Shown here: one piece after another, positions 13,839-60,618 of the stretch
How positions within the stretch are numbered: the stretch's first letter is position 1
Layout: every line of letters starts with the position of its first letter
DNA from: Lachnospiraceae bacterium
Lineage (GTDB): Bacteria > Bacillota > Clostridia > Lachnospirales > Lachnospiraceae
Direction of reading: 5' to 3'
DNA length: 64,000 nt
NCBI GenBank assembly: GCA_910575255.1
Contig: CAJTEM010000003.1
Location: 124,001 to 188,000 of the forward strand
The notes under the pieces: generated by a model
Told to the model about the DNA's origin: nothing
Seen by the model: the letters and a program-made list of their open reading frames with translations, nothing else
Database searches by the model: none
Translations under genes and position numbers: made by a program

Positions 13839-13924
13839 TTAAAGGAAAATATTACACGCTTTTCACGGTATTCATTTGTACTGTCCGTTTCCAATATCAC
13901 TCGTTTAGCTCTGAGAATACTCAG

Positions 13925-14164
13925 CCTTGGAAAAGAGGGGAGAGGCGCTTCGAAATGGTCTGCTGTTTTTGACTTTGCAGGGATATAGAAGTCCTTAAAT
14001 CCCTGAGTTTTGCGTTGAAACGAAAATCCCCGCTGTTTGAGCGAAGCGAGTTCGGGGATTTCCGTTTCGTTCTTAGCAAAAATCAGGGATTTTAGGAATT
14101 CTTGATCCCGAAACCGGAAAAGACAGCAGACCATTTCGAAGCGCCTCTCCCCTCTTTTCCAAGG
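13925..14164 (+). repeat. Long-hairpin repeat, family 1, copy A (240 bp)
   Basis: The outer arms 13925-13966 and 14123-14164 are perfect 42-bp inverted repeats; the inner arms are imperfectly paired (for example GAAACGAAAATCCCCG with CGGGGATTTCCGTTTC). The apex contains TTTGAGCGAAGCGAGTT. On the right it is followed by GCGTACCTTTCAG. Copy B (27015-27301) shares the inner arms and apex in reverse orientation but has different outer arms. The element lies in the 5' leader of the regulator gene, so it should be transcribed. No protein is encoded. Confidence 0.85.
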
Positions 14165-14256
14165 CGTACCTTTCAGTAAAACCTGAACCAAATGACATTG
14201 GCCCGTAAACCAGTAACATAAATTCCGGCAAAAGCATCAAGGGGGAAGAAAACCGA

Positions 14257-27014: not shown

Positions 27015-27301
27015 GCCAGGGAAAAGGGGAGAACCCCCGCCGGAAATGGTCTGCTGCTTTTTCCGGTTTCGAGATTAAGAATTCCTAACATTTCTGATTT
27101 TTGCTTACGATAAAATGCGCCACTGGCGCATTTTCCTGCGCGCTTAGGCGAAAGACGAAACGAAAATTCCCAAACTCGCTTCGCTCAGACAGTGTGAATT
27201 TTCGTTTCAACGCAAAACTCAGAAATCTAAGGACTTCTAACTCTCTGCAAAGTCAAAATCCGCAGACCATTTCCGGCGGGGGTTCTCCCCTTTTCCCTGG
27301 C
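27015..27301 (-). repeat. Long-hairpin repeat, family 1, copy B (287 bp)
   Basis: Perfect 40-bp outer arms, 27015-27054 and 27262-27301. Read on the minus strand, the inner sequence matches copy A: TTTTGACTTTGCAG, AGAAGTCCTTAG, GTTTTGCGTTGAAACGAAAA, apex TCTGAGCGAAGCGAG, then CTCGAAACCGGAAAAAGC and the trailing GCGTACCCTTCAG. It carries an extra hairpin ATGCGCCACTGGCGCAT at about 27115-27131 that A lacks. It lies between livJ and livH in the transcribed strand direction. Confidence 0.85.
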
Positions 27302-30646: not shown

Positions 30647-30848
30647 AGCTCTGAAAAAAGGGTTCCCCGGATTGCGTTTGCAGGATGCTTAGAAACTCTT
30701 AGCTCGCAGGAATCTGCGTCAGGAGCAAAAATACAGCTGTTTAAGCGAAGCGAGTTCTGTATTTTTGCTCCTGTTTTTAGCAAATTCCTGCAAGCTTAGA
30801 GTTTCTGCATCCGAAACTCGCAATCCGGGGAACCCTTTTTCCAGAGCT
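30647..30848. repeat. Long-hairpin repeat, family 1, copy C (about 202 bp)
   Basis: Outer arms AGCTCTG/CAGAGCT with GGTTCCCCGGATTGCG/CGCAATCCGGGGAACC inside. The apex GTTTAAGCGAAGCGAGTT is flanked by AGGAGCAAAAATACAG/CTGTATTTTTGCTCCT. It ends in TTACCTTTCGG like copies A and B, and its right half keeps TTTTTAGCAAA and the CCGAAAC word. It lies between the divergent gntR cluster and the DUF1934 stop. The remainder of 30412-30646 shows no gene. Confidence 0.8.
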
Positions 30849-33388: not shown

Positions 33389-33714
33389 GGGCTTTCGCCC
33401 TATGGCGATATCTCTTCCCTAGCTCTTATGCAAGCGAGCTTGCAACGTGTTTGCGAGGGAATGTCCGCAGTGCATCTTCTTGTTTTCATGAAGCCTGAAA
33501 ACAAGAAGCTCGGGCTTTCGCCCTATGGCGATATCTCTTCCCTAGCTCTTATGCAAGCGAGCTTGCAACGTGTTTGCGAGGGAATGTCCGCAGTGCATCT
33601 TCTTGTTTTCATGAAGCCTGAAAACAAGAAGCTCGGGCTTTCGCCCTATGGCGATATCTCTTCCCTAGCTCTTATGCAAGCGAGCTTGCAACGAACTTGG
33701 GAAGAGATATCGCC
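33389..33714. repeat. 123-bp tandem repeat (2.5 copies) closed by a 16-bp hairpin
   Basis: Two identical units start at 33389 and 33512, and a partial third at 33635-33693. Each unit contains three small hairpins: GGGCTTTCGCCC, GCAAGCGAGCTTGC, and CTTCTTGTTTTC paired with GAAAACAAGAAG. The third unit breaks into GGGAAGAGATATCGCC (33699-33714), which pairs perfectly with 33650-33665. Because 123 is divisible by 3, a frame with an internal 41-residue repeat results (33428-33763); it has no ribosome site and is not called. The rest of 33349-33802 holds no gene. Confidence 0.85.
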
Positions 33715-43300: not shown

Positions 43301-44434
43301 ATGAATAAAAAAATTTTTACTTTTCTCTCAGCCTGTATCTTTGTTATCTGCTGCACTGCATGCAACACGAAAAAACCAGAAACAAAGCCGGTTCAGACAA
43401 CGGCCCGGGAAAGCAGCGGCATCCTTGTCTCCGCGGCAAAACCAACCGATATGGACGTCCCGGAGCCGGAAGAAACCGCCTCTCTGCCGACGCATACATA
43501 CACGACAAAATTGTCCGAAGCAAACGGTCTTCCTACTCCTGTATTTATGTTTGACTATCCGGATAACTGGAGAGTTTCCGCAGTAGATATCGGAGAAGAA
43601 TCCGAATTTGTAGACCTGACAAATGACGATGGAATCGTGATCGAATATATGTATGTGGCTTCTTCCGCCTTTATCGGTGACATTCGGTATATGGTTGACG
43701 TAAATATCACGAAAATCGCGGACTCCCGCTTTGTTCCGGGTTATGCACAGACCATGGATTATTCCCACCTGGGGAAATTCGCTGTTGTAAAAACAGAGGC
43801 GGATTCCGAAAGGTATTATGCGGTAATGCCGGAATCCGAATGCAGCAGAAGCTCTGTCGAAGCGAATTGCATAACCGGCTTCTGGTATGACGGGTGTCTG
43901 GAATTCAAGGTAGCGATACCGGAAAAGCTTACGCCACAAAAGGAGCAGGAAATCGTCGGGATCCTCTCCAGCTTCCGGGTATCTGACAGCACAAGCAACG
44001 CTGCCGCAGAAAAGGAATCTCCGGAAGGCGACCCGTCCTGTACGGCATTGCAAAACGGTGATTTTTCAGAATTCGCAGGCACCTACAGACCCTGCAGTAT
44101 TTACGTGGATGCGTATGGCGGTGGCGGTGAACTTCTGGATTTGATCCTCTACGAGGACGGGCGGACTGCAGATGGAGGACCGTCGTTTGATCCCAGCCCC
44201 TATCCCCAAACCAGGCCGGTATCCGTGACAAAAAAAGAGGATGGTTCCTATCTGTGTCAGGTAGAATATCTGAATGAAGACCTGCAGTCATACTTCCTGA
44301 TTTATCCCACAGGAATGCCAGAAGGAGATCCGTGCCTGAAAGACAACCCGTCCCTGGCAGGAACACCCTGTATCCGGTATGTTGTGCTTGATGGCGGTGT
44401 GATGGATATTACCTATCATAAAATTGAAAACTAG
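43301..44434 (+). CDS. Putative secreted lipoprotein (377 aa)
   Basis: Signal peptide with a candidate lipobox ending at Cys21 (FVICCTAC; the -3 residue is Cys rather than Leu, so lipidation is likely but not certain). A Pro/Thr/Glu-rich linker follows to about residue 65. The middle region (about 70-230) looks like a beta-rich module of the kind seen in PsbP-like or DUF domains of clostridial lipoproteins (PVFMFDYPDNWRVSAVDIGE). The C-terminal ~120 residues (FAGTYRPCSIYVDAYGGGGE and on) look like a second domain. No enzyme motif is visible. Its stop codon TAG lies at the very edge of the palindromic repeat that follows, and its terminator is beyond that repeat. Confidence 0.85.
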   Translation: MNKKIFTFLSACIFVICCTACNTKKPETKPVQTTARESSGILVSAAKPTDMDVPEPEETASLPTHTYTTKLSEANGLPTPVFMFDYPDNWRVSAVDIGEESEFVDLTNDDGIVIEYMYVASSAFIGDIRYMVDVNITKIADSRFVPGYAQTMDYSHLGKFAVVKTEADSERYYAVMPESECSRSSVEANCITGFWYDGCLEFKVAIPEKLTPQKEQEIVGILSSFRVSDSTSNAAAEKESPEGDPSCTALQNGDFSEFAGTYRPCSIYVDAYGGGGELLDLILYEDGRTADGGPSFDPSPYPQTRPVSVTKKEDGSYLCQVEYLNEDLQSYFLIYPTGMPEGDPCLKDNPSLAGTPCIRYVVLDGGVMDITYHKIEN

Positions 44435-44593
44435 AGCGTGTTTGAAAATTCATTCCCGGCATCTGCACGTCCCACTTCGCGGTATATTTGGGCCAAATTC
44501 AGGTTACATAGCCCACTATGCGCCCTTCATTTGGCCCAAATCTCCCACAAACTGTGACGCACATCTGCCAGAAAGCAATTTTCAAACACGCTC
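44434..44593. repeat. Palindromic repeat, family 2, copy F (160 bp)
   Basis: Perfect 17-bp ends GAGCGTGTTTGAAAATT/AATTTTCAAACACGCTC (44434-44450 with 44577-44593), a second perfect stem ATTTGGGCCAAAT/ATTTGGCCCAAAT inside, and an apex that on the minus strand reads GCGCATAGTGGGCTATGT. The apex matches those of copies G and H. It is inserted between the lipoprotein stop and its terminator. Confidence 0.85.
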
Positions 44594-44616
44594 CAGAAAA
44601 AGAACATCAGATAAAA

Positions 44617-45836: not shown

Positions 45837-45986
45837 TCATTCCGGTTTGTAATGGCTTCCCCGCAATTTCCCTTCCTTTTTCAGGATTCCAGCCACCACC
45901 ATTTTCCTCAGAATTTTCAGTGCGCGGGAATCCTTCACGTTCAGCAGGTTCTGGACCTCCTTATTTGTGACTGCCCCGTTTTCCTC
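45837..45986 (-). pseudogene. C-terminal winged-helix fragment of a larger regulator or ATP-binding protein
   Basis: Forty-nine codons ending in a stop at 45837 read as a winged helix: EENGAVTNKEVQNLLNVKDS, then RALKILRKMVVAGILKKEGK, then GSHYKPE. Such segments close AlbA_2/Schlafen-like ATP-binding regulators. The frame is cut at its 5' side exactly where repeat copy G begins (CTAG at 45986-45989), and no matching N-terminal part is found beyond. Confidence 0.6.
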
Positions 45987-45989
45987 TAG

Positions 45990-46147
45990 TATAACCCGTT
46001 TTAAATACCTTTCTGTTTCGGCAAGGATACTTTTCCGAGAGTGCAGAGGGAAAAGCGGAGGCGTAGTGGGGCTACGTTGAGCATTTTCCCTCTGTGCTAT
46101 CGGGAAAGCAGACTGGCGAAACGGAAGGTTATTTAAAACGGGTTATA
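45990..46147. repeat. Palindromic repeat, family 2, copy G (158 bp)
   Basis: Perfect 18-bp ends, 45990-46007 (TATAACCCGTTTTAAATA) with 46130-46147, flanked on both sides by CTAG (45986-45989 and 46148-46151). The apex GGCGTAGTGGGGCTACG is shared with copies F and H. The middle arm GCAGAGGGAAAA pairs with TTTTCCCTCTGTGC. Confidence 0.85.
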
Positions 46148-46151
46148 CTAG

Positions 46152-46310
46152 TACAGCATTGCTTAAATTTCGGTGAATCAATTGCTTGATATCGGTGTCA
46201 TCTGTGCGTCTGCGAAGCGACGGCGTAGTGGTGCCTACGTCTAGCTTCGCAGGCGTGCAGAGGGCGCTGATAGCGGGTAATTGATTCACCGGAATTTAGG
46301 CAAGGCTGTA
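46152..46310. repeat. Palindromic repeat, family 2, copy H (159 bp)
   Basis: Ends TACAGC/GCTGTA with imperfect pairing of about 45 nt per arm (GGTGAATCAATT with AATTGATTCACC is perfect) and apex GGCGTAGTGGTGCCTACG. It is flanked by CTAG at 46148-46151 and 46311-46314, sharing one CTAG with copy G. Confidence 0.85.
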
Positions 46311-46314
46311 CTAG

Positions 46315-46371
46315 TACAGCCTTGCATTAATCTCGAAGTAATCAGTGTTTGATGTTTGCGTCAGTGCAAGG
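46315..46371. repeat. Palindromic repeat, family 2, truncated copy I
   Basis: Begins after CTAG with TACAGCCTTGCATTAAT and follows the left arm of copy H for about 50 nt (for example TTTGATGTTTGCGTCA against TTGATATCGGTGTCA). It then ends abruptly in the ATPase fragment. Apex and right arm are missing. Confidence 0.6.
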
Positions 46372-48291: not shown

Positions 48292-48325
48292 GATCTCTTA
48301 CTCATCACGGGCAATGTCAGTAAGT

Positions 48326-50182
48326 TTAAGAAATGGGGAGAGAAAGTACCGGGGGCTCCTCTCTCCGGTGTCTTCTCTCTGTTTCCCCAAGCTCATTTTC
48401 CCGTGGTTTCCCGCCCTCTCTTTTCTCGTTGCTTCCCTGGAAATCCCCCGGCGGTTTCTTACTTTCCAGATCTTTCCCTGCCTCTCCTCCTTCCCCTTCC
48501 CTTCTCCCGAAGCCTTCTGGCTGTTCCGGCGGTTTCTCCCCAGGTCTGCCTCCCTGCGGGTCCCTCCATTTTCCCGGCTCATGGCCTCTCCTTTCCCGGC
48601 CATCGGGCGATGCTCCAAAGATGGTCTCCCGTCCGGCTATCGTGACCTGGATTTCGTCTTCCTCCTCCCCTGTTTTCACATAGTACACATTTCCCTCCTC
48701 CATTCCGGGAACCGAGAGAATCATGGTATCAAACTCCTTCTCCGGTGCGTATTCTCCCAGTATCGTGCCCTCCTCATCCGTTAGCTGGATCTGGCTCCCT
48801 GCCTTCCGGCTTTCTTCCAGGCAGATCACCAGATAATTGCTGGTAGACTTTTCTCCAAAGGTCTGCATCATGCCCGAACTGCCTGCCGCAAACAGGGTTC
48901 CTCCGGTAATCATTGCCTCTCCATTGTAATCAAGGATTCCGTCTCCCCGGCTCACCGGTCCGCTCAAATATAAGACGCCGCCCTCGAAATACAGATCCCC
49001 ATTGGAATCTATGCCGTCTGCTTTGGCATTCAGCCAGATCTCTCCGCCGGCAATCCGCGTATACACGCCATCCTGATCCTGCATTTTCTCCTGCTCTGTT
49101 TCCACGGAAGCCGCCGAATTGATCCCGTCATCCAATGTCACTGCCTTTACCAGCCCGCCCAGGATATCCACCGTCTTCCCGGCCAGCCCCTCCTGGCTCT
49201 CAGCCACATGAATATTTCCGCCGCATACCACCAGGGCTGTCTCCGCCTGTATCCCGTCATCCTTAGCGGCAATGGTAATCTCCCCTCCGTCAATCCAGAT
49301 AAACCCATTTTCCGGGTCTTCATCCTGGTTCGATTTGATTCCATCCTTCCCTGCCTGAATCGTCAGCATACCGTCCCGGATGATCACCGAGTCCTTTCCC
49401 TTCAGTCCGTCATCCATGGACTCTATGGTAATAGTTCCCGAGATCACCTTCAAATTGTCCTTGCTGCGGATTCCGCATTGGTAATTCCCATATACCTCGA
49501 GTTCCCCGGTTCCGTTGATCGTCAGATCTCCCTTTGTAAAGATCGGTGCATCCGGCTCGTCCTCTCCTTCGGTTTCAAACTGATATTCGCTGCCGTCCCA
49601 GATGACATTCTTTGTCCCGTCCGCCAGGGTAAGCACTACCTTGCACTTTTCCGTTCCATAGATCGGGGCGGTATGCATATTTGACAACTCTGCTCCGTTC
49701 AGAACCAGCCGGACCAGTTCCTCTTCTTTTGCCTCTATACGTATTTGTCCCTCTGCCATCTGGCCGGATATCACATAGACTCCGCCCTTTTCGATGACTG
49801 CTGTATACCCGGAAGCTTTCACCCCTTCTCCCTCTGCCGTTACTCCGCTTTCCGACAGCATAATTTGGGCTGTCCCTTCCTCCTCCCATTCATTTTCCAG
49901 ATCCTCTGGTTCATAGAAGATCGTCTTTTCGCCGCCCTCTCCCAGAGAGGCTGTCACGGTTATCCTGCCGTCGGCTTCTGTCCTTTCACTGCGTCCAGAG
50001 ACGTCAGAAGCTGCCGGAGCTTTTTCTTTTTCAACGGTATCCGCCTGCACATCCTCCTTGCTTTGTGATGTTTCCTGCATAGTATCTTCCGCCTTTTGGC
50101 ATCCGGTTGCCTGCACCGCCAAAACACTGCCTGTCAGACACAATACCAGAAAACGGCCTCTTATTTCTCCTATTCCTCTCAT
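48326..50182 (-). CDS. Carbohydrate-binding domain lipoprotein, Cthe_2159/DUF4353 type (618 aa)
   Basis: Secreted lipoprotein. The signal peptide runs from residue 1 to the lipobox ATGC at about 25-28 and is followed by an acidic linker. The body (about 120-530) is a right-handed beta-helix built of repeats such as GDLTINGTGELEVYGNYQCG, DSVIIRDGMLTIQAGKDGIK and GEITIAAKDDGIQAETALVV. The recurring Asp-Gly-Ile pattern bears Ca2+-binding acidic turns. This is the Cthe_2159 (DUF4353) cellulose/polygalacturonate-binding family. The C-terminal ~90 residues are a highly charged Pro/Gly/Arg/Glu-rich tail. The start at 50182 is chosen because AGGAGG lies 10 nt upstream. It is convergent with the MBL gene. 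A role in binding acidic plant polysaccharide at the surface is inferred. Confidence 0.88.
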   Translation of the reverse strand: MRGIGEIRGRFLVLCLTGSVLAVQATGCQKAEDTMQETSQSKEDVQADTVEKEKAPAASDVSGRSERTEADGRITVTASLGEGGEKTIFYEPEDLENEWEEEGTAQIMLSESGVTAEGEGVKASGYTAVIEKGGVYVISGQMAEGQIRIEAKEEELVRLVLNGAELSNMHTAPIYGTEKCKVVLTLADGTKNVIWDGSEYQFETEGEDEPDAPIFTKGDLTINGTGELEVYGNYQCGIRSKDNLKVISGTITIESMDDGLKGKDSVIIRDGMLTIQAGKDGIKSNQDEDPENGFIWIDGGEITIAAKDDGIQAETALVVCGGNIHVAESQEGLAGKTVDILGGLVKAVTLDDGINSAASVETEQEKMQDQDGVYTRIAGGEIWLNAKADGIDSNGDLYFEGGVLYLSGPVSRGDGILDYNGEAMITGGTLFAAGSSGMMQTFGEKSTSNYLVICLEESRKAGSQIQLTDEEGTILGEYAPEKEFDTMILSVPGMEEGNVYYVKTGEEEDEIQVTIAGRETIFGASPDGRERRGHEPGKWRDPQGGRPGEKPPEQPEGFGRREGEGGEAGKDLESKKPPGDFQGSNEKREGGKPRENELGETERRHRREEPPVLSLPIS

Positions 50183-55307: not shown

Positions 55308-55343
55308 TAATAACGACATTGTATTTTACGAGGAAGAAGGCAA

Positions 55344-55436
55344 ATGCGAAGCATTCTCAAGATATCTTCCGACAACATGCCGCCGAGCGAACGCAAGGGG
55401 GCACTACCTTATTCTATCAGGAGGACAGATAAATGA
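55344..55436 (+). CDS. Small upstream ORF (30 aa) coupled to the cell-wall-binding gene
   Basis: ATG at 55344 with GAGGAAGAAGG upstream; the product begins MRSILKISSDNMPPSERKGA and is strongly basic. Its TGA overlaps the ATG of the next gene (ATGA at 55433-55436), and the ribosome site of the next gene (AGGAGG) lies within it. Coupled or leader translation is plausible. It is not a known peptide family, and the call rests on the start/stop arrangement alone. Confidence 0.45.
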   Translation: MRSILKISSDNMPPSERKGALPYSIRRTDK

Positions 55437-56151: not shown

Positions 56152-56224
56152 CTGGGCCAGCTGGATTCGAACCAGCGAAATGCAGGAGTCAAAGTCCTGT
56201 GCCTTACCGCTTGGCTATGGCCCA
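56152..56224 (-). tRNA. tRNA-Gln (TTG)
   Basis: Cloverleaf with acceptor TGGGCCA/TGGCCCA, anticodon loop CTTTGAC (TTG), T-loop GGTTCGAATCC and discriminator G. CCA is not encoded. Confidence 0.95.
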
Positions 56225-56256
56225 AAATCAGATTTCTCAAGTAAAGAAATATGGAA

Positions 56257-56335
56257 TGCGGGTGACAGGACTTGAACCTGCACGGTTGCCCGCCAGCTCC
56301 TAAGGCTGGTGCGTCTGCCATTCCGCCACACCCGC
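56257..56335 (-). tRNA. tRNA-Leu (TAG)
   Basis: Class II tRNA with acceptor GCGGGTG/CACCCGC, anticodon loop CTTAGGA (TAG), a short variable arm (GGCGGGCAACCGT region), T-loop GGTTCAAGTCC and discriminator A. Confidence 0.95.
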
Positions 56336-56407
56336 AGAACAGATCCGGAAACCTTCCGGTCTTCTGATAGGATTGTAAAAAAAAATTCCCGAAGGAATCA
56401 TTTTCAG

Positions 56408-56482
56408 GGTGGATAAAGGGATTCGAACCCTTGGCCTCCAGAGCCACAATCTGGCGCGCTAACCAACTGCGCTATACCCACC
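56408..56482 (-). tRNA. tRNA-His (GTG)
   Basis: Anticodon loop TTGTGGC (GTG), the extra 5' G(-1) pairing with C73 as required for tRNA-His, and T-loop GGTTCGAATCC. Confidence 0.95.
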
Positions 56483-56520
56483 ATATTCATGCCGCGCCGC
56501 GGTTTCCCGCTCCCGCGCAA

Positions 56521-56594
<74 letters not shown>

Positions 56595-56700
56595 AAAATA
56601 CCATTCTGATTCAACAGGCTTCGCCACCCCGGCGACGGATTACATTTTATCATAGGATAGAACAAAATGCAAGTACTTTTTGCCTGGATTCTGTTTTTTC

Positions 56701-56729
56701 TTGACATTTTCTGTATGCTATGCTACTTT
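56701..56729 (+). promoter_or_regulatory. Promoter of the alanine/glycine symporter gene
   Basis: TTGACA (56701-56706), 17-bp spacer, TACTTT (56724-56729), giving a leader of about 165 nt. Confidence 0.6.
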
Positions 56730-56770
56730 ATTAAAGTGCATGAATGTACAGGATAACATTTGCAATGGGG

Positions 56771-56805
56771 CAGGTGGAACAAAAAGGGGTTCCTCCTGTT
56801 TTTTA
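56771..56805 (+). terminator. Leader terminator / candidate attenuator before the symporter
   Basis: Stem CAGGTGGAAC/GTTCCTCCTG (one mismatch) followed by TTTTTTA, between the promoter and the start codon at 56901. It overlaps a 27-codon frame (56740-56823) that is rich in Gly, Ala and Ser codons around NGAGGTKRGSS but lacks a ribosome site. No glycine riboswitch pattern is seen. Confidence 0.6.
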
Positions 56806-56900
56806 TTCCGCAATTTTCCGTGAGACTGACTCTCTGTCTGGCCGCAGCATTTATGCCGAATCTCTCTGCCAACGGCAGAATCCACAGGAGGAAAGCATGT

Positions 56901-58391
56901 ATGATTGAAATAATCACAAATGTCAACGGTATTGTCAACAATTTTGTCTGGGGAATTCCCATGCTTGTTCTTTTGGTCGGCACTGGTATTTTCATGACCA
57001 TTCTTACCAGAGTATTCCAGATTTCCCATTTCGGGTACTGGGTCAAACACACCTTGGGCAGTATTTTCACTGACAAACACATCACCAGGCACACAGAAAA
57101 GGAAGATCAGTCCATCACTCAGTTCCAGTCCATGTGTACGGCCCTTGCCGCCACGATCGGCACCGGCAACATCGTGGGAGTCTCCTCCGCATTGCTGTTC
57201 GGAGGACCCGGATCCATCTTCTGGATGTGGATCGTAGCTTTCTTCGGGATGATGACCAACTATTCGGAAAATGTTCTGGGCATCTACTACCGCAAAAAAA
57301 ATACCAAAGGAGAATGGTCTGGAGGAGCTATGTATTATCTGCGGGACGGTCTTGGCGCCAGGCACGGCATGCACCAGGCAGGCGCCATACTGGCAGTCCT
57401 GTTCTCCATCTTTTGTCTGATGGCCTCCTTCGGCATCGGCAACATGAGCCAGATCAATTCCATTGCCGGTAATATGAAGGCTGCCTTTGGAATTCCCAAT
57501 GTAGTAACCGGTATCGTGCTGATGATTCTGGCCGGCCTGGTAATTCTGGGCGGCATCAAAAGAATTGCTTCCGTGACGGAAAAGCTGGTTCCGTTTATGG
57601 CCGTTTTCTATATAATCGGTTCCCTGACTCTCTGTATTGTCAATGCCGGACAGCTGGTTCCTGCTTTGGCATCCATCTTCAAGGGCGCCTTTGCCATGAA
57701 GGCTGTCGGAGGCGGTATCGTTGGCGCAGGAATCAAGATGGCCCTGACCTGGGGAATGAAGCGCGGTGTATTCTCCAATGAGGCTGGCCTTGGTTCCTCC
57801 GTTATGGTTCATTCCAGCTCTAATGTGCGGGAGCCGGTCCGCCAGGGCATGTGGGGAATCTTCGAGGTATTTGCCGATACCATCGTCGTTTGTACCCTGA
57901 CAGCCCTTACTGTGCTGACTTCCGGGCTTGTCGATCTGGATACTGGCGCTGTCATCAGTGAAGCAGAAGGATCTGCACTGGTAGGTGAGGCATTCGCAAA
58001 GGTATTCGGCCAGGCCGGCCCTGCATTTATCGCTGTTGCCATTCTGCTGTTCGCCTTCTCCACAGTGCTTGGCTGGAGTCACTATGGTTCCAAGGCCTTT
58101 GAATACCTGTTCGGATCCGGCGCAATCGTTGTATACCGTGTCCTTTTTATTGTATTTATCCTCTGCGGTGCAACCATGAGCCTGGATCTGGCATGGGATC
58201 TGTCTGATACCTTCAACGGCCTGATGGCAATTCCCAACCTGATCGGTGTGCTGTCCCTCTCACCGGTGGTTTTCAGAATCACCAAAAACTATGTGGATCG
58301 CCACATCCGCGGACTCAGAACCGAACCCATGCTTTCTGCCTTTCCTGAAATCCAGAAGCAGATGGCAGCGGAACTGGATGATAGTGAATAG
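56901..58391 (+). CDS. Sodium:alanine/glycine symporter, AGCS family (496 aa)
   Basis: Na+-coupled amino acid symporter with about eleven transmembrane helices. Family signatures are MCTALAATIGTGNIVGVSSA, WMWIVAFFGMMTNYSENVLG, YRKKNTKGEWSGGAMYYLRD and KRGVFSNEAGLGSSVMVHSS. The latter includes the conserved Asn-Glu-Ala-Gly motif. AGGAGG 9 nt upstream of ATG 56901 sets the start, 47 codons inside the longest frame. It takes up alanine, glycine or related small amino acids. A hairpin in the leader suggests transcription attenuation. Confidence 0.94.
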   Translation: MIEIITNVNGIVNNFVWGIPMLVLLVGTGIFMTILTRVFQISHFGYWVKHTLGSIFTDKHITRHTEKEDQSITQFQSMCTALAATIGTGNIVGVSSALLFGGPGSIFWMWIVAFFGMMTNYSENVLGIYYRKKNTKGEWSGGAMYYLRDGLGARHGMHQAGAILAVLFSIFCLMASFGIGNMSQINSIAGNMKAAFGIPNVVTGIVLMILAGLVILGGIKRIASVTEKLVPFMAVFYIIGSLTLCIVNAGQLVPALASIFKGAFAMKAVGGGIVGAGIKMALTWGMKRGVFSNEAGLGSSVMVHSSSNVREPVRQGMWGIFEVFADTIVVCTLTALTVLTSGLVDLDTGAVISEAEGSALVGEAFAKVFGQAGPAFIAVAILLFAFSTVLGWSHYGSKAFEYLFGSGAIVVYRVLFIVFILCGATMSLDLAWDLSDTFNGLMAIPNLIGVLSLSPVVFRITKNYVDRHIRGLRTEPMLSAFPEIQKQMAAELDDSE

Positions 58392-58417
58392 CATTTACGG
58401 ATTCCCATAGAGCTTAA

Positions 58418-58449
58418 AAAGGGGCTGTCTCTGCGACAGTCCCTTTCCG
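58418..58449 (+). terminator. Terminator of the symporter gene
   Basis: Stem AAAGGGGCTGTC/GACAGTCCCTTT (58418-58429 with 58435-58446, one G-U) followed by a short pyrimidine-rich tail; the T-run is weak. Confidence 0.6.
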
Positions 58450-58522
58450 GCTTTCTGTTCTCTGGCACAACGAAAATGATAAATCCAATTCTCCACTACA
58501 AGCAACAAAACCTCAATCTATG

Positions 58523-59365
58523 TCAGCATCTCCAGCCATAATACGTTACCCCATACCACGCTGCAAAGCTTATTAACATAATCATAAACATCGCACTATT
58601 AAAGAGAAGCAGATAAGGATATCTTCCCCAGATTCTTTTTATCCATCTTGTCAAAGCACACTTTCCCACTGCCTCTGCGGCCGTAGAAGCCGCTATTTCA
58701 CGGTTCAGCAGTTTTGCCAGCACATACAAAAACATAAATACCATGTTAAAAATAATCAGGCCAACAAAAGCCGCCGTAAAAACCAGCTTAAATCTGCCAA
58801 TACTGTGCATGTTAGCAAACAGCTCACCAAAGGCTGTCATAGCCCCAAAGAAAACCAATACCACTGCTGAAAATATCCCCAAAATAGAAACAAACTGAGA
58901 ATAGGAATCCTCAACCTTGCCTTTGAGGCTGTTAGTCTCTTCTCTGAACTCCTTCACTTCCAAATCAATCTTTTGCGATTGCTCCTTCCGCAGCTCAGTC
59001 ATTGCAGAATCCACAGCCTTTGCTGCATTTGTCAATGCTGCATTCATGGTATGAAGATTCATCTCATTAAAATTTTTAAAATTATATTTTATTCTGTTTA
59101 ATTCTAATGTTATATGGTCGATCAACTTAAACACTTTAATAGATATTAATTCGTCTTCCGGATATTCTCCCAGTCTGCTTTGAATCCGTCTCAAATTCTC
59201 CAGTAAATACTCAATATCATCTGCCTCCATCAGATAGGCCGAAACTTCTGAATATTTATGTCTTTTGTTATTCGTATAATATTCCTTTACAATATTGCAC
59301 AAAAGATCCAACTGGGTAATATCACGGATCTCCGCTGTACCGATTTTCTGTAATAGTTCCCTCAC
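58523..59365 (-). CDS. Membrane protein with coiled coil and three C-terminal helices, paired with a Panacea gene (280 aa)
   Basis: Not a family I can name. The N-terminal ~100 residues are helical and charged (TQLDLLCNIVKEYYTNNKRH and VSAYLMEADDIEYLLENLRR). Residues about 108-155 read as a coiled coil (AKAVDSAMTELRKEQSQKID and on). Hydrophobic helices lie at about 158-182, 192-217 and 250-276. It starts 14 nt after the Panacea-domain gene and is surely co-transcribed with it. In known Panacea pairs the neighbour of the DUF4065 gene is a toxin, some of which act on membranes. On that basis this protein is a candidate membrane-acting toxin or defence effector, but that is inference. Confidence 0.75.
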   Translation of the reverse strand: MRELLQKIGTAEIRDITQLDLLCNIVKEYYTNNKRHKYSEVSAYLMEADDIEYLLENLRRIQSRLGEYPEDELISIKVFKLIDHITLELNRIKYNFKNFNEMNLHTMNAALTNAAKAVDSAMTELRKEQSQKIDLEVKEFREETNSLKGKVEDSYSQFVSILGIFSAVVLVFFGAMTAFGELFANMHSIGRFKLVFTAAFVGLIIFNMVFMFLYVLAKLLNREIAASTAAEAVGKCALTRWIKRIWGRYPYLLLFNSAMFMIMLISFAAWYGVTYYGWRC

Positions 59366-59379
59366 CTTTCATTCCCCAT

Positions 59380-59856
59380 TTATAAATAGTTCTGCCTGAG
59401 CATATCAATGGTAATGACCTCGTTCCTGTCCGTTCTTTTCCATGGCTCTTCCTGATGTGTCAGCTCAACCATATCCCATGGAAGGACATCCTTGTAATAC
59501 TCAACTACAGATCTTATCAGCATTCGGTGACCATACTCAAAAATAGCTTCCTCATATCTTTTGGGTTCTATCACAAATGATCTGAGATCCATATTATAAC
59601 GAAAGGAAAAATATTCCAATTCCTTATCTGTAATCGCCTCTGCACCGTAAGCCTTATACTTTTGATAAACACTCTCCACTACAGGGCCGTGTCTCCAATG
59701 GATGATCGGCTCTTCAAAACAGGGAATCCCATACTGTCTGATAAATGCCACCTGAACAAAATAGAGTAGCTTTTGTAACTTCAGATTACTGACCGGTCTT
59801 CCGATTTCTATGGAATAGTTAATCATGTACCTTGCCACATCCATCACATTATACAT
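59380..59856 (-). CDS. Panacea-domain (DUF4065) protein, putative antitoxin (158 aa)
   Basis: DUF4065 (Panacea, SocA-like) protein. The start NVMDVARYMINYSIEIGRPV is followed by the family hallmark SNLKLQKLLYFVQVAFIRQY, then PIIHWRHGPVVESVYQKYKA and the C-terminal SVVEYYKDVLPWDMVELTHQ and PWKR region. Panacea proteins act as antitoxins for many unrelated toxins; SocA is a ClpX adaptor for SocB. GGAGGTGAGAAT directly precedes ATG 59856; the frame is open ten codons further. It is the first gene of a two-gene unit with the membrane protein gene downstream. Confidence 0.88.
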   Translation of the reverse strand: MYNVMDVARYMINYSIEIGRPVSNLKLQKLLYFVQVAFIRQYGIPCFEEPIIHWRHGPVVESVYQKYKAYGAEAITDKELEYFSFRYNMDLRSFVIEPKRYEEAIFEYGHRMLIRSVVEYYKDVLPWDMVELTHQEEPWKRTDRNEVITIDMLRQNYL

Positions 59857-59928
59857 ATTCTCACCTCCACAAACAGAGTAAAACAATTGACAGCCTCAAT
59901 TGCTTAAGACAATAATCTGCTTATATTT

Positions 59929-59957
59929 AGTATATGGCATTGTATAGAAAAAATCAA
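59929..59957 (-). promoter_or_regulatory. Promoter of the Panacea gene pair
   Basis: TTGATT (59952-59957), 17-bp spacer, TATACT (59929-59934) on the minus strand. Two CAATTG words 13 bp apart (59884-59889 and 59897-59902) lie between it and the start codon and could be an operator for autoregulation. Confidence 0.5.
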
Positions 59958-60137
59958 TTTACATTTTCTACAATAATTCAATCGAACATTTGTTTGTTTT
60001 TCCTGTATTGCAAACTATCTAACCATCCTGCTCCGTCAAAGCAGAAAAAGGAAAATCTTTCGCCTCTCGAAATCCATATTGAATCAGCTAACATTCTCAC
60101 GCAAAAATAAGACCTTGCTCATACAAAGTCTTTCTAA

Positions 60138-60208
60138 AGCAGGTGATGGGAATCGAACCCACGTATCCAGCTTGGAAGGCTGGTGTTCTACCATTGAACT
60201 ACACCTGC
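60138..60208 (-). tRNA. tRNA-Gly (TCC)
   Basis: Acceptor GCAGGTG/CACCTGC, anticodon loop CTTCCAA (TCC), T-loop GGTTCGATTCC, discriminator T as usual for tRNA-Gly, 71 nt. Confidence 0.95.
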
Positions 60209-60241
60209 AAAATATCATTCTATTCTGTTGATCTGTTCCAA

Positions 60242-60316
60242 TCGGGGTGACAGGATTCGAACCTGCGACTTCCTGGTCCCAAACCAGGCGCTCTAGCCAA
60301 ACTGAGCCACACCCCG
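60242..60316 (-). tRNA. tRNA-Pro (TGG)
   Basis: Acceptor CGGGGTG/CACCCCG, anticodon loop TTTGGGA (TGG), T-loop GGTTCGAATCC and discriminator A. Nothing further is seen between here and the repeat at 60532. Confidence 0.95.
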
Positions 60317-60531: not shown

Positions 60532-60618
60532 CCAGAAAAGGATTCCCCGAATTGCGTTTGCAGGCTTTTGTAAGCTTAGAGTTTCTGCATCCGAAACCCG
60601 CAGTCCCAGGAAACCTCT
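60532..60618. repeat. Long-hairpin repeat, family 1, decayed copy D
   Basis: Left part CCAGAAAAGG, GATTCCCCGAATTGCGTTTG matches the left arm of copy C. It joins directly to the right part (AAGCTTAGAGTTTCTGCATC, CGAAACCCGCAGTCCCAGG). The apex and inner arms are deleted and the outer pairing is eroded. Confidence 0.6.

Follow-up and report, generated by a model that had tools for sequence, protein, structure and literature searches.

The window analysed here, a 64-kb stretch of the source genome (5,137,875 bases in 106 contigs), contains four copies of a long hairpin element. Copy A, a type-1 hairpin on the + strand (13924..14165), lies between two divergent genes, which encode EIIA-man and a sigma-54-activator/PRD protein, and its tip is located at 14034..14052 (+ strand, TGTTTGAGCGAAGCGAGTT), with GCGAAGC at 14041-14047. 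The initial annotation gave this copy perfect 42-bp ends; these are indeed found from 13925/14164, and the perfect outer arms reach 43 bp if taken from 13924/14165, enclosing a conserved inner core. Copy B, also of type 1 (27015..27301, - strand; tip at 27173..27191, - strand, TGTCTGAGCGAAGCGAGTT), shows the 40-bp perfect outer arms first described for it, from 27015/27301, and an additional small hairpin in its core. It lies between two same-strand transport genes, and the first ORF, as listed, extends into the copy. The outer arms of copies A and B are unlike, yet self-complementarity is kept in each, and the inner arms, the tip, and the trailing GCGTACC are common to both copies, just as the initial annotation had read them. 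Copy C (30647..30848, + strand; tip at 30738..30756, + strand, TGTTTAAGCGAAGCGAGTT) and remnant D (60532..60618, + strand), in which the hairpin tip is deleted, had been assigned to a second subtype, and this subtype (type 2) is found to have the same core plan as type 1. The outer arms of copy C are less perfect, with 7 bp perfect at the foot and 42 nt at 86%. In keeping with the initial annotation, which saw no transposase nearby, none was found among the eight neighbouring window proteins scanned. No target duplication is recognisable at any of the four window copies (A, B, C, and D).

The window also holds other repeats and structured features. Another long-hairpin family, with CTAGTATAACCCGTTTTAAATA ends, is seen at 45986-46321, together with a hairpin nearby whose tip is GGCGTAGTGG..CTACGT; the CTAGTATAACCCGTTTTAAATA end motif occurs on contig C1 once as a pair and once singly. 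A 123-bp unit with a palindrome (CTTCTTGTTTTCATGAAG..) is present in about two and a half repeats at 33404-33714 and overlaps a predicted 111-aa ORF. At 44431-44596, two 81-nt arms, 75% complementary and 4 nt apart, lie at the end of an ORF ending at 44434, and a GA-cis RNA (Rfam) is found at 55328-55412, near six tRNA genes at 56152-60316.

Family size, ends, and mobility

Searches of the source genome confirm that the observation is beyond chance and that the hairpins form a real repeat family, larger than first reported. Type 1 gives at least 41 near-full BLAST matches, obtained by scoring 40 of 235 candidate regions, and a 38-letter core pattern with up to 3 mismatches finds it at 101 places, with none in the reversed control; many close subfamilies are present within type 1. 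Type 2 gives at least 38 near-full and at least 3 partial BLAST matches from the 40 of 166 candidates that were scored. The tip pattern is found 133 times (5 in the reversed control) and the end motif 144 times (1 in the control), and the type 1 and type 2 families total well over 100 members in the 5.14-Mb genome. In 826 kb (four contigs and the window) we located 58 elements, 44 of type 1 and 14 of type 2. Predicted ORFs make up 85% of these 826 kb, and 6 of the 58 elements overlap a predicted ORF; three of the six overlapped ORFs are 118-134 aa long and run antisense across the hairpin. Unusual arrangements are seen at two loci: in L033 a type-1 shell encloses a type-2 core, and in L024 the GCGTACCCTCTGTTCCAAG foot is repeated in tandem.

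To define the units, every GTTACT[GT]TTCAC left end on the contigs and loci of the source genome that were analysed was joined to the right end that follows it, which gives 29 units, with one locus entering with two left ends. Target duplications of 7-8 bp are found in 13 of the 29 units and are lacking at the other 16, and perfect 8-mers are found in 8 of the 29, where 0.04 are expected from swapped flanks. In an earlier, overlapping set, duplications were seen at all five type-1 units with outer ends, against an expectation of 0.24 at 7 bp. A second, inner end type, CAATGTCA..TGACATTG, shows 8-10 bp duplications at 6 of 25 type-1 copies (0.7 expected), and in 4 of these 6 the target is a TTCACGGG-like stretch of the outer end, indicating that the elements nest. 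The units with GTTACT[GT]TTCAC ends are 65-814 bp long and too short for a transposase gene; six are 338-340 bp long with one type-1 hairpin, and four of 600-604 bp contain type 1 and type 2 hairpins in inverted orientation. An identical 46-bp spacer is seen five times, and therefore the type 1/type 2 pairs spread as one unit. Duplications appear swapped between C1:117664-118265 and C1:175310-176103, with TGACCGGA beside one end of each, which suggests recombination between copies.

Because 6 of the 29 units are 338-340 bp long, the full mobile unit of copy A can be placed at about 13878..14217 (+ strand, ~340 bp), with decayed outer terminal repeats (GTACTGTCCG ... CCAGTAAC); the coordinates first given for this copy would then be too short for its mobile unit. 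The inner terminal repeats of copy A lie at 13891..13899 (+ strand, CCAATATCA) and 14193..14201 (- strand, TGACATTGG). A stray inner terminal repeat (CAATGTCAGTAAGTT) at 48312..48326 (+ strand), beside a hairpin, is probably a decayed type-1 element.

The initial annotation had proposed empty sites in related strains as a check on mobility. The relative G022 lacks copy A at the EIIA/activator locus; among 23 relatives it is the only one in which the next gene has a full-length orthologue, and the ends of the insertion are not defined to the base there. Copy C has no hit at its locus in any of 10 relatives, in which only one neighbour gene is conserved and the other differs. The 8-bp target duplications, the more than 100 copies, the nesting, and one absence at an orthologous site are thus all established, and by every feature tested the elements are mobile, non-autonomous DNA elements (MITEs). 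The 8-bp-duplicating transposons with IS66-like ends, their nesting, and the inverted type 1/type 2 pairs had been missed in the initial annotation.

Candidate mobilising enzymes

The source genome, in its 106 contigs, has four matches to the IS66-type domain PF03050, and the one on contig C37 alone has ends similar, not identical, to those of the elements. Its ends are GTAACAGTTCAGCC with an 8-bp duplication (AATTTTTT), and they share 9 of 11 bases with GTTACTGTTCA and 8 of 11 with the T variant. An autonomous element with exact GTTACT[GT]TTCAC ends and a transposase was not found in the source genome. In ISDge4, a member of the ISBst12 group of the IS66 family, the terminal sequences are GTGACTACTCAGCA and GTAACTGCTCAGCA, accompanied by a repeat of 8 bp (PMC12898284). 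A putative kinship of the elements with IS66/ISBst12 is supported by their ends and the size of their duplication: with ISBst12-group elements such as ISDge4 and with MITEs generally they share the 8-bp duplication, ends like GT[AT]AC[AT]G[CT]TCA, a length that leaves no room for a transposase gene, a high copy number, and an intergenic position. They differ from both in that the body consists of one or two hairpins of ~200-250 bp with a conserved core, that another type of end (CAATGTCA) lies nested within them, and that no mobilising partner with identical ends was found.

Other candidate movers were tried and rejected. Reverse transcriptases give six matches in five genes, which by eye are group II-like, with one retron-like and one other, and no type-1 or type-2 match lies in the flanking sequence scanned around these genes. 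Six matches to IS4-type DDE_Tnp_1 have no matching ends; this includes a gene in L182 at ~0.2 kb from a type-1 copy. A resemblance of the inner ends (CAATGTCA..GTTAAG) to those of IS231-like elements gained no support. Widely spaced outer ends, searched for among the first ~100 of the 144 end places, were considered as possible autonomous elements, and the seven ORFs scanned between or beside them contain no transposase; five have Pfam matches (sigma-54 factor, Clp protease, DUF1836, Schlafen/AlbA, and glutamate synthase) and two have no match.

Arms, core, and tip of the hairpins

The tip GAGCGNAGCGAG was compared in 56 aligned type-1 copies. Its column N is variable (A 30, C 15, G 6, T 5), and the remaining 11 columns are conserved in 51-56 of the 56 copies, four rows being misaligned there. 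In 17 relatives, N is again variable (A 11, C 4, G 2), and the other columns are conserved in 16-17 of 17. The GA/GA flanking the tip could presumably form sheared pairs. DNA mini-hairpins of extraordinary stability result when a GNA loop, with N free to be any base, is combined with two or more G-C pairs (PMC4686876). The tip resembles the d(GCGNAGC) mini-hairpin of Hirao and Yoshizawa (cited in PMC4686876) in its sequence and in the freedom of N; there d(GCGNAGC) is an oligonucleotide, whereas in the elements the sequence sits at the tip of hairpins that occur naturally and at many sites.

The two arms of a copy match each other far more closely than the arms of different copies do. Within copies, 117 of 2,751 arm positions are mismatched (4.3%; 54 of 56 type-1 copies), a somewhat flattering figure because the best local alignment was used, and a global count of the outer arms gives 76 mismatches in 2,210 (3.4%), with 617 gap cells set aside. 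Between copies, the 5' arms differ at 23.7% of positions (600 random pairs) and the core at 8.8%. A first RNAalifold alignment misaligned the outer arms, and the arm statistics were therefore taken from within-copy alignments. The type-2 foot is normally asymmetric (22 of 29 true copies), but it forms a perfect arm of at least 20 bp in 6 of the 29 copies and of 17 bp in one. The converted feet carry the 3'-side motif on both arms in L033 and L053 and the 5'-side motif in L038, and L160 is a chimera in which half a type 2 is joined to half a type 1. The one orthologous hairpin pair compared, from two species of another genus and next to a gene that by eye looks like that for CTP synthase, speaks against a simple picture: one hairpin shows 20 one-sided and 13 two-sided paired changes in 94 pairs, and the other has hardly changed.

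The initial annotation held that covarying arms mean either that the fold is maintained or that the arms are re-templated. The covariation is real and fits re-templating, but a maintained RNA fold over the arms is not supported by the mismatches in the source genome: selection for RNA folding should leave more G-U than A-C, and the two are about equal. Mismatches of the outer arms include 25 G-U and 23 A-C, those of the whole arms of 52 type-1 copies include 112 G-U and 96 A-C, and those of 36 copies matched by the type-2 model (7 of which read as type 1) include 71 G-U and 90 A-C. If the elements were instead a dispersed family of structured RNAs, acting as leaders, attenuators, or substrates of RNase III, with arms that covary through selection of the RNA fold, this would account for the internal loops, which are conserved in an otherwise covarying helix and common to types 1 and 2. 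It would also account for the type-1 core helices, where, on a structure proposed by an RNA program, G-U outnumbers A-C by 42 to 21 in the 56 own copies and by 19 to 11 in the 17 relatives, and for a weak G-U excess in hairpins of other sources (48 to 29; 16 of 36 hairpins used). We nevertheless regard this explanation as unlikely, since the whole arms in the source genome show no G-U preference, the target duplications mark mobile DNA, and the elements show no clear orientation relative to genes (among 33 elements in tandem gaps, 12 are on the same strand and 21 on the opposite strand). Rfam holds no curated family matching the elements (window at the gathering threshold, copy A down to E 5, and five far loci), and nothing in the search of copy A to E 5 came near a gathering score. 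Self-templating at the level of DNA is the better account of the covariation, because G-U and A-C are about equal over the arms, the conversions are symmetric, and a chimera exists. RNA selection on the arms is thus less well supported than re-templating, while the core helices, which lean to G-U, may leave some room for selection of an RNA fold. Equal numbers of G-U and A-C are also expected from selection of a DNA hairpin, so re-templating and DNA-fold selection are not separated by these counts.

Two further explanations leave the arms without special correction or assign the elements to another enzyme. Ordinary MITEs, with arms matched merely through recency, would fit the many close subfamilies, and long terminal repeats are frequent in MITEs. 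We consider this quite improbable given the symmetric foot conversions and the differences between copies, 24% in the arms against 9% in the core, which require that a master lineage kept its arms matched while diverging. REP/BIME/REPIN sequences are inverted hairpin pairs, intergenic, and present in very many copies, and in these respects the elements are like them. Two inverted hairpins moved by a Y1 (TnpA-REP/RAYT) transposase would agree with the - + orientation of 13 of 17 neighbouring copies at most 450 bp apart (3 are - - and 1 is + -), counts that are not independent because some pairs are copies of one 46-bp-spacer unit, and with three - + hairpin pairs in genus g59, two of them orthologous. 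The elements differ in their far longer hairpins, their 8-bp duplications, which to our knowledge are not expected of Y1 enzymes, and in that no RAYT-like partner was found near them. The genome has only three Y1 matches, one with a stop, one partial, and one intact gene that reads by eye like IS200 TnpA, and no type-1 or type-2 match lies in their 1500-bp flanks. A REPIN-like origin is therefore largely refuted for the source genome and, overall, very hard to credit.

We consider it probable that the elements are MITEs with IS66/ISBst12-like ends and one or two hairpin bodies, whose arms are re-copied and whose core is kept for its shape. In this model, the enzyme acting on the GTTACT[GT]TTCAC ends would be a transposase of the IS66/ISBst12 type. 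When single-stranded during replication or transposition, the body would fold, nucleated by the very stable d(GCGNAGC) tip, and synthesis that switches template onto the opposite arm would make the arms perfect again; as the outcome of such switching, the arms would drift between copies while each copy remained self-complementary. That stems can be made perfect by template switching is known (PMC8794818; PMC7202029). The elements are like cases of quasipalindrome correction or template-switch mutation in their perfect arms and multi-base compensatory changes, and unlike them in that a whole transposon family would be subject to the process again and again, with at least 20 bp converted at a time. 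The core, comprising the internal loops and the tip in both subtypes, is most likely kept for its shape as DNA, because the loops and tip are common to both subtypes and the tip is common also to other genera; our guess is that it serves as a folding aid, in protein docking, or in transposition. What is new is the body, with its conserved DNA-type hairpin core, a tip found beyond the genus, and arms kept perfect most probably by copying. Compensatory changes, the usual proof of a functional RNA fold, here seem to arise at the DNA level in a natural family, a caution for covariation searches, and a family with a hundred or more copies in one genome is a test bed for template-switch evolution.

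Hairpins with the same tip in other genomes

BLAST finds the family in 9 of 24 genomes of the genus (source included) and in none of 17 genomes of other genera. Across the phylum, 14 of 398 genomes contain the tip pattern, which represent the own genus and 10 others of 267 genera; outside the source genome (G000) there are 1-36 copies per genome, and the reversed control gives 0 there. Copy A has no match in plasmids by BLAST. Some results speak against a wide family: 14 plasmid records are weak BLAST matches (E 0.3-3), six of them inside a Pseudomonas chemotaxis gene. Among five of these 14 records that were examined, three carry the tip with one mismatch and that from Ilyobacter folds poorly, making the Ilyobacter hairpin doubtful as a relative. 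Hairpins were reached through the weak plasmid matches in Butyrivibrio, Fusobacterium, Parabacteroides, and Aureibacter, and in some of them the tip has one mismatch. The phage collection gave no match, which likewise speaks against a wide family, and the viral-contig scans gave eight stretches.

Outside the source genome, we collected 31 distinct hits; their flanking self-complementarity lies above the 95% control in 28 and above the 99% control in 16. Of the 31, 12 have the CGTTAA / TTTTAG inner loop or a close variant of it (0.25 expected), as do 9 of 28 once the hits fetched with GCGTT in the pattern are removed, 8 of these 9 coming from three genomes of one family. On alignment, hairpins with short stems and those with long stems do not line up at the 3' side. 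By eye, the arms and outer ends are unrelated between genera, and no target duplication was seen at three copies in G285.

The hairpins may belong to a superfamily spread over several phyla, with a d(GA-GCGNAGC-GA) tip and often a CGTTAA/TTTTAG loop, in which the shape of single-stranded DNA is selected, unrelated transposon ends are used in each genus, and repeated arm-to-arm copying produces covariation without RNA selection; we put this forward tentatively, as a possibility that falls short of even chances. The common tip points to DNA hairpins outside the genus that may form a class not yet described, with a shape that has a chemically known reason. No description of the hairpin family was recognised in our literature searches. 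Beside the other-genus hairpins L228-L239, no shared (mobile) gene was recognised by eye. As judged by eye from the ORF starts, these hairpins adjoin housekeeping-like genes, such as those for CTP synthase and ribosomal proteins.
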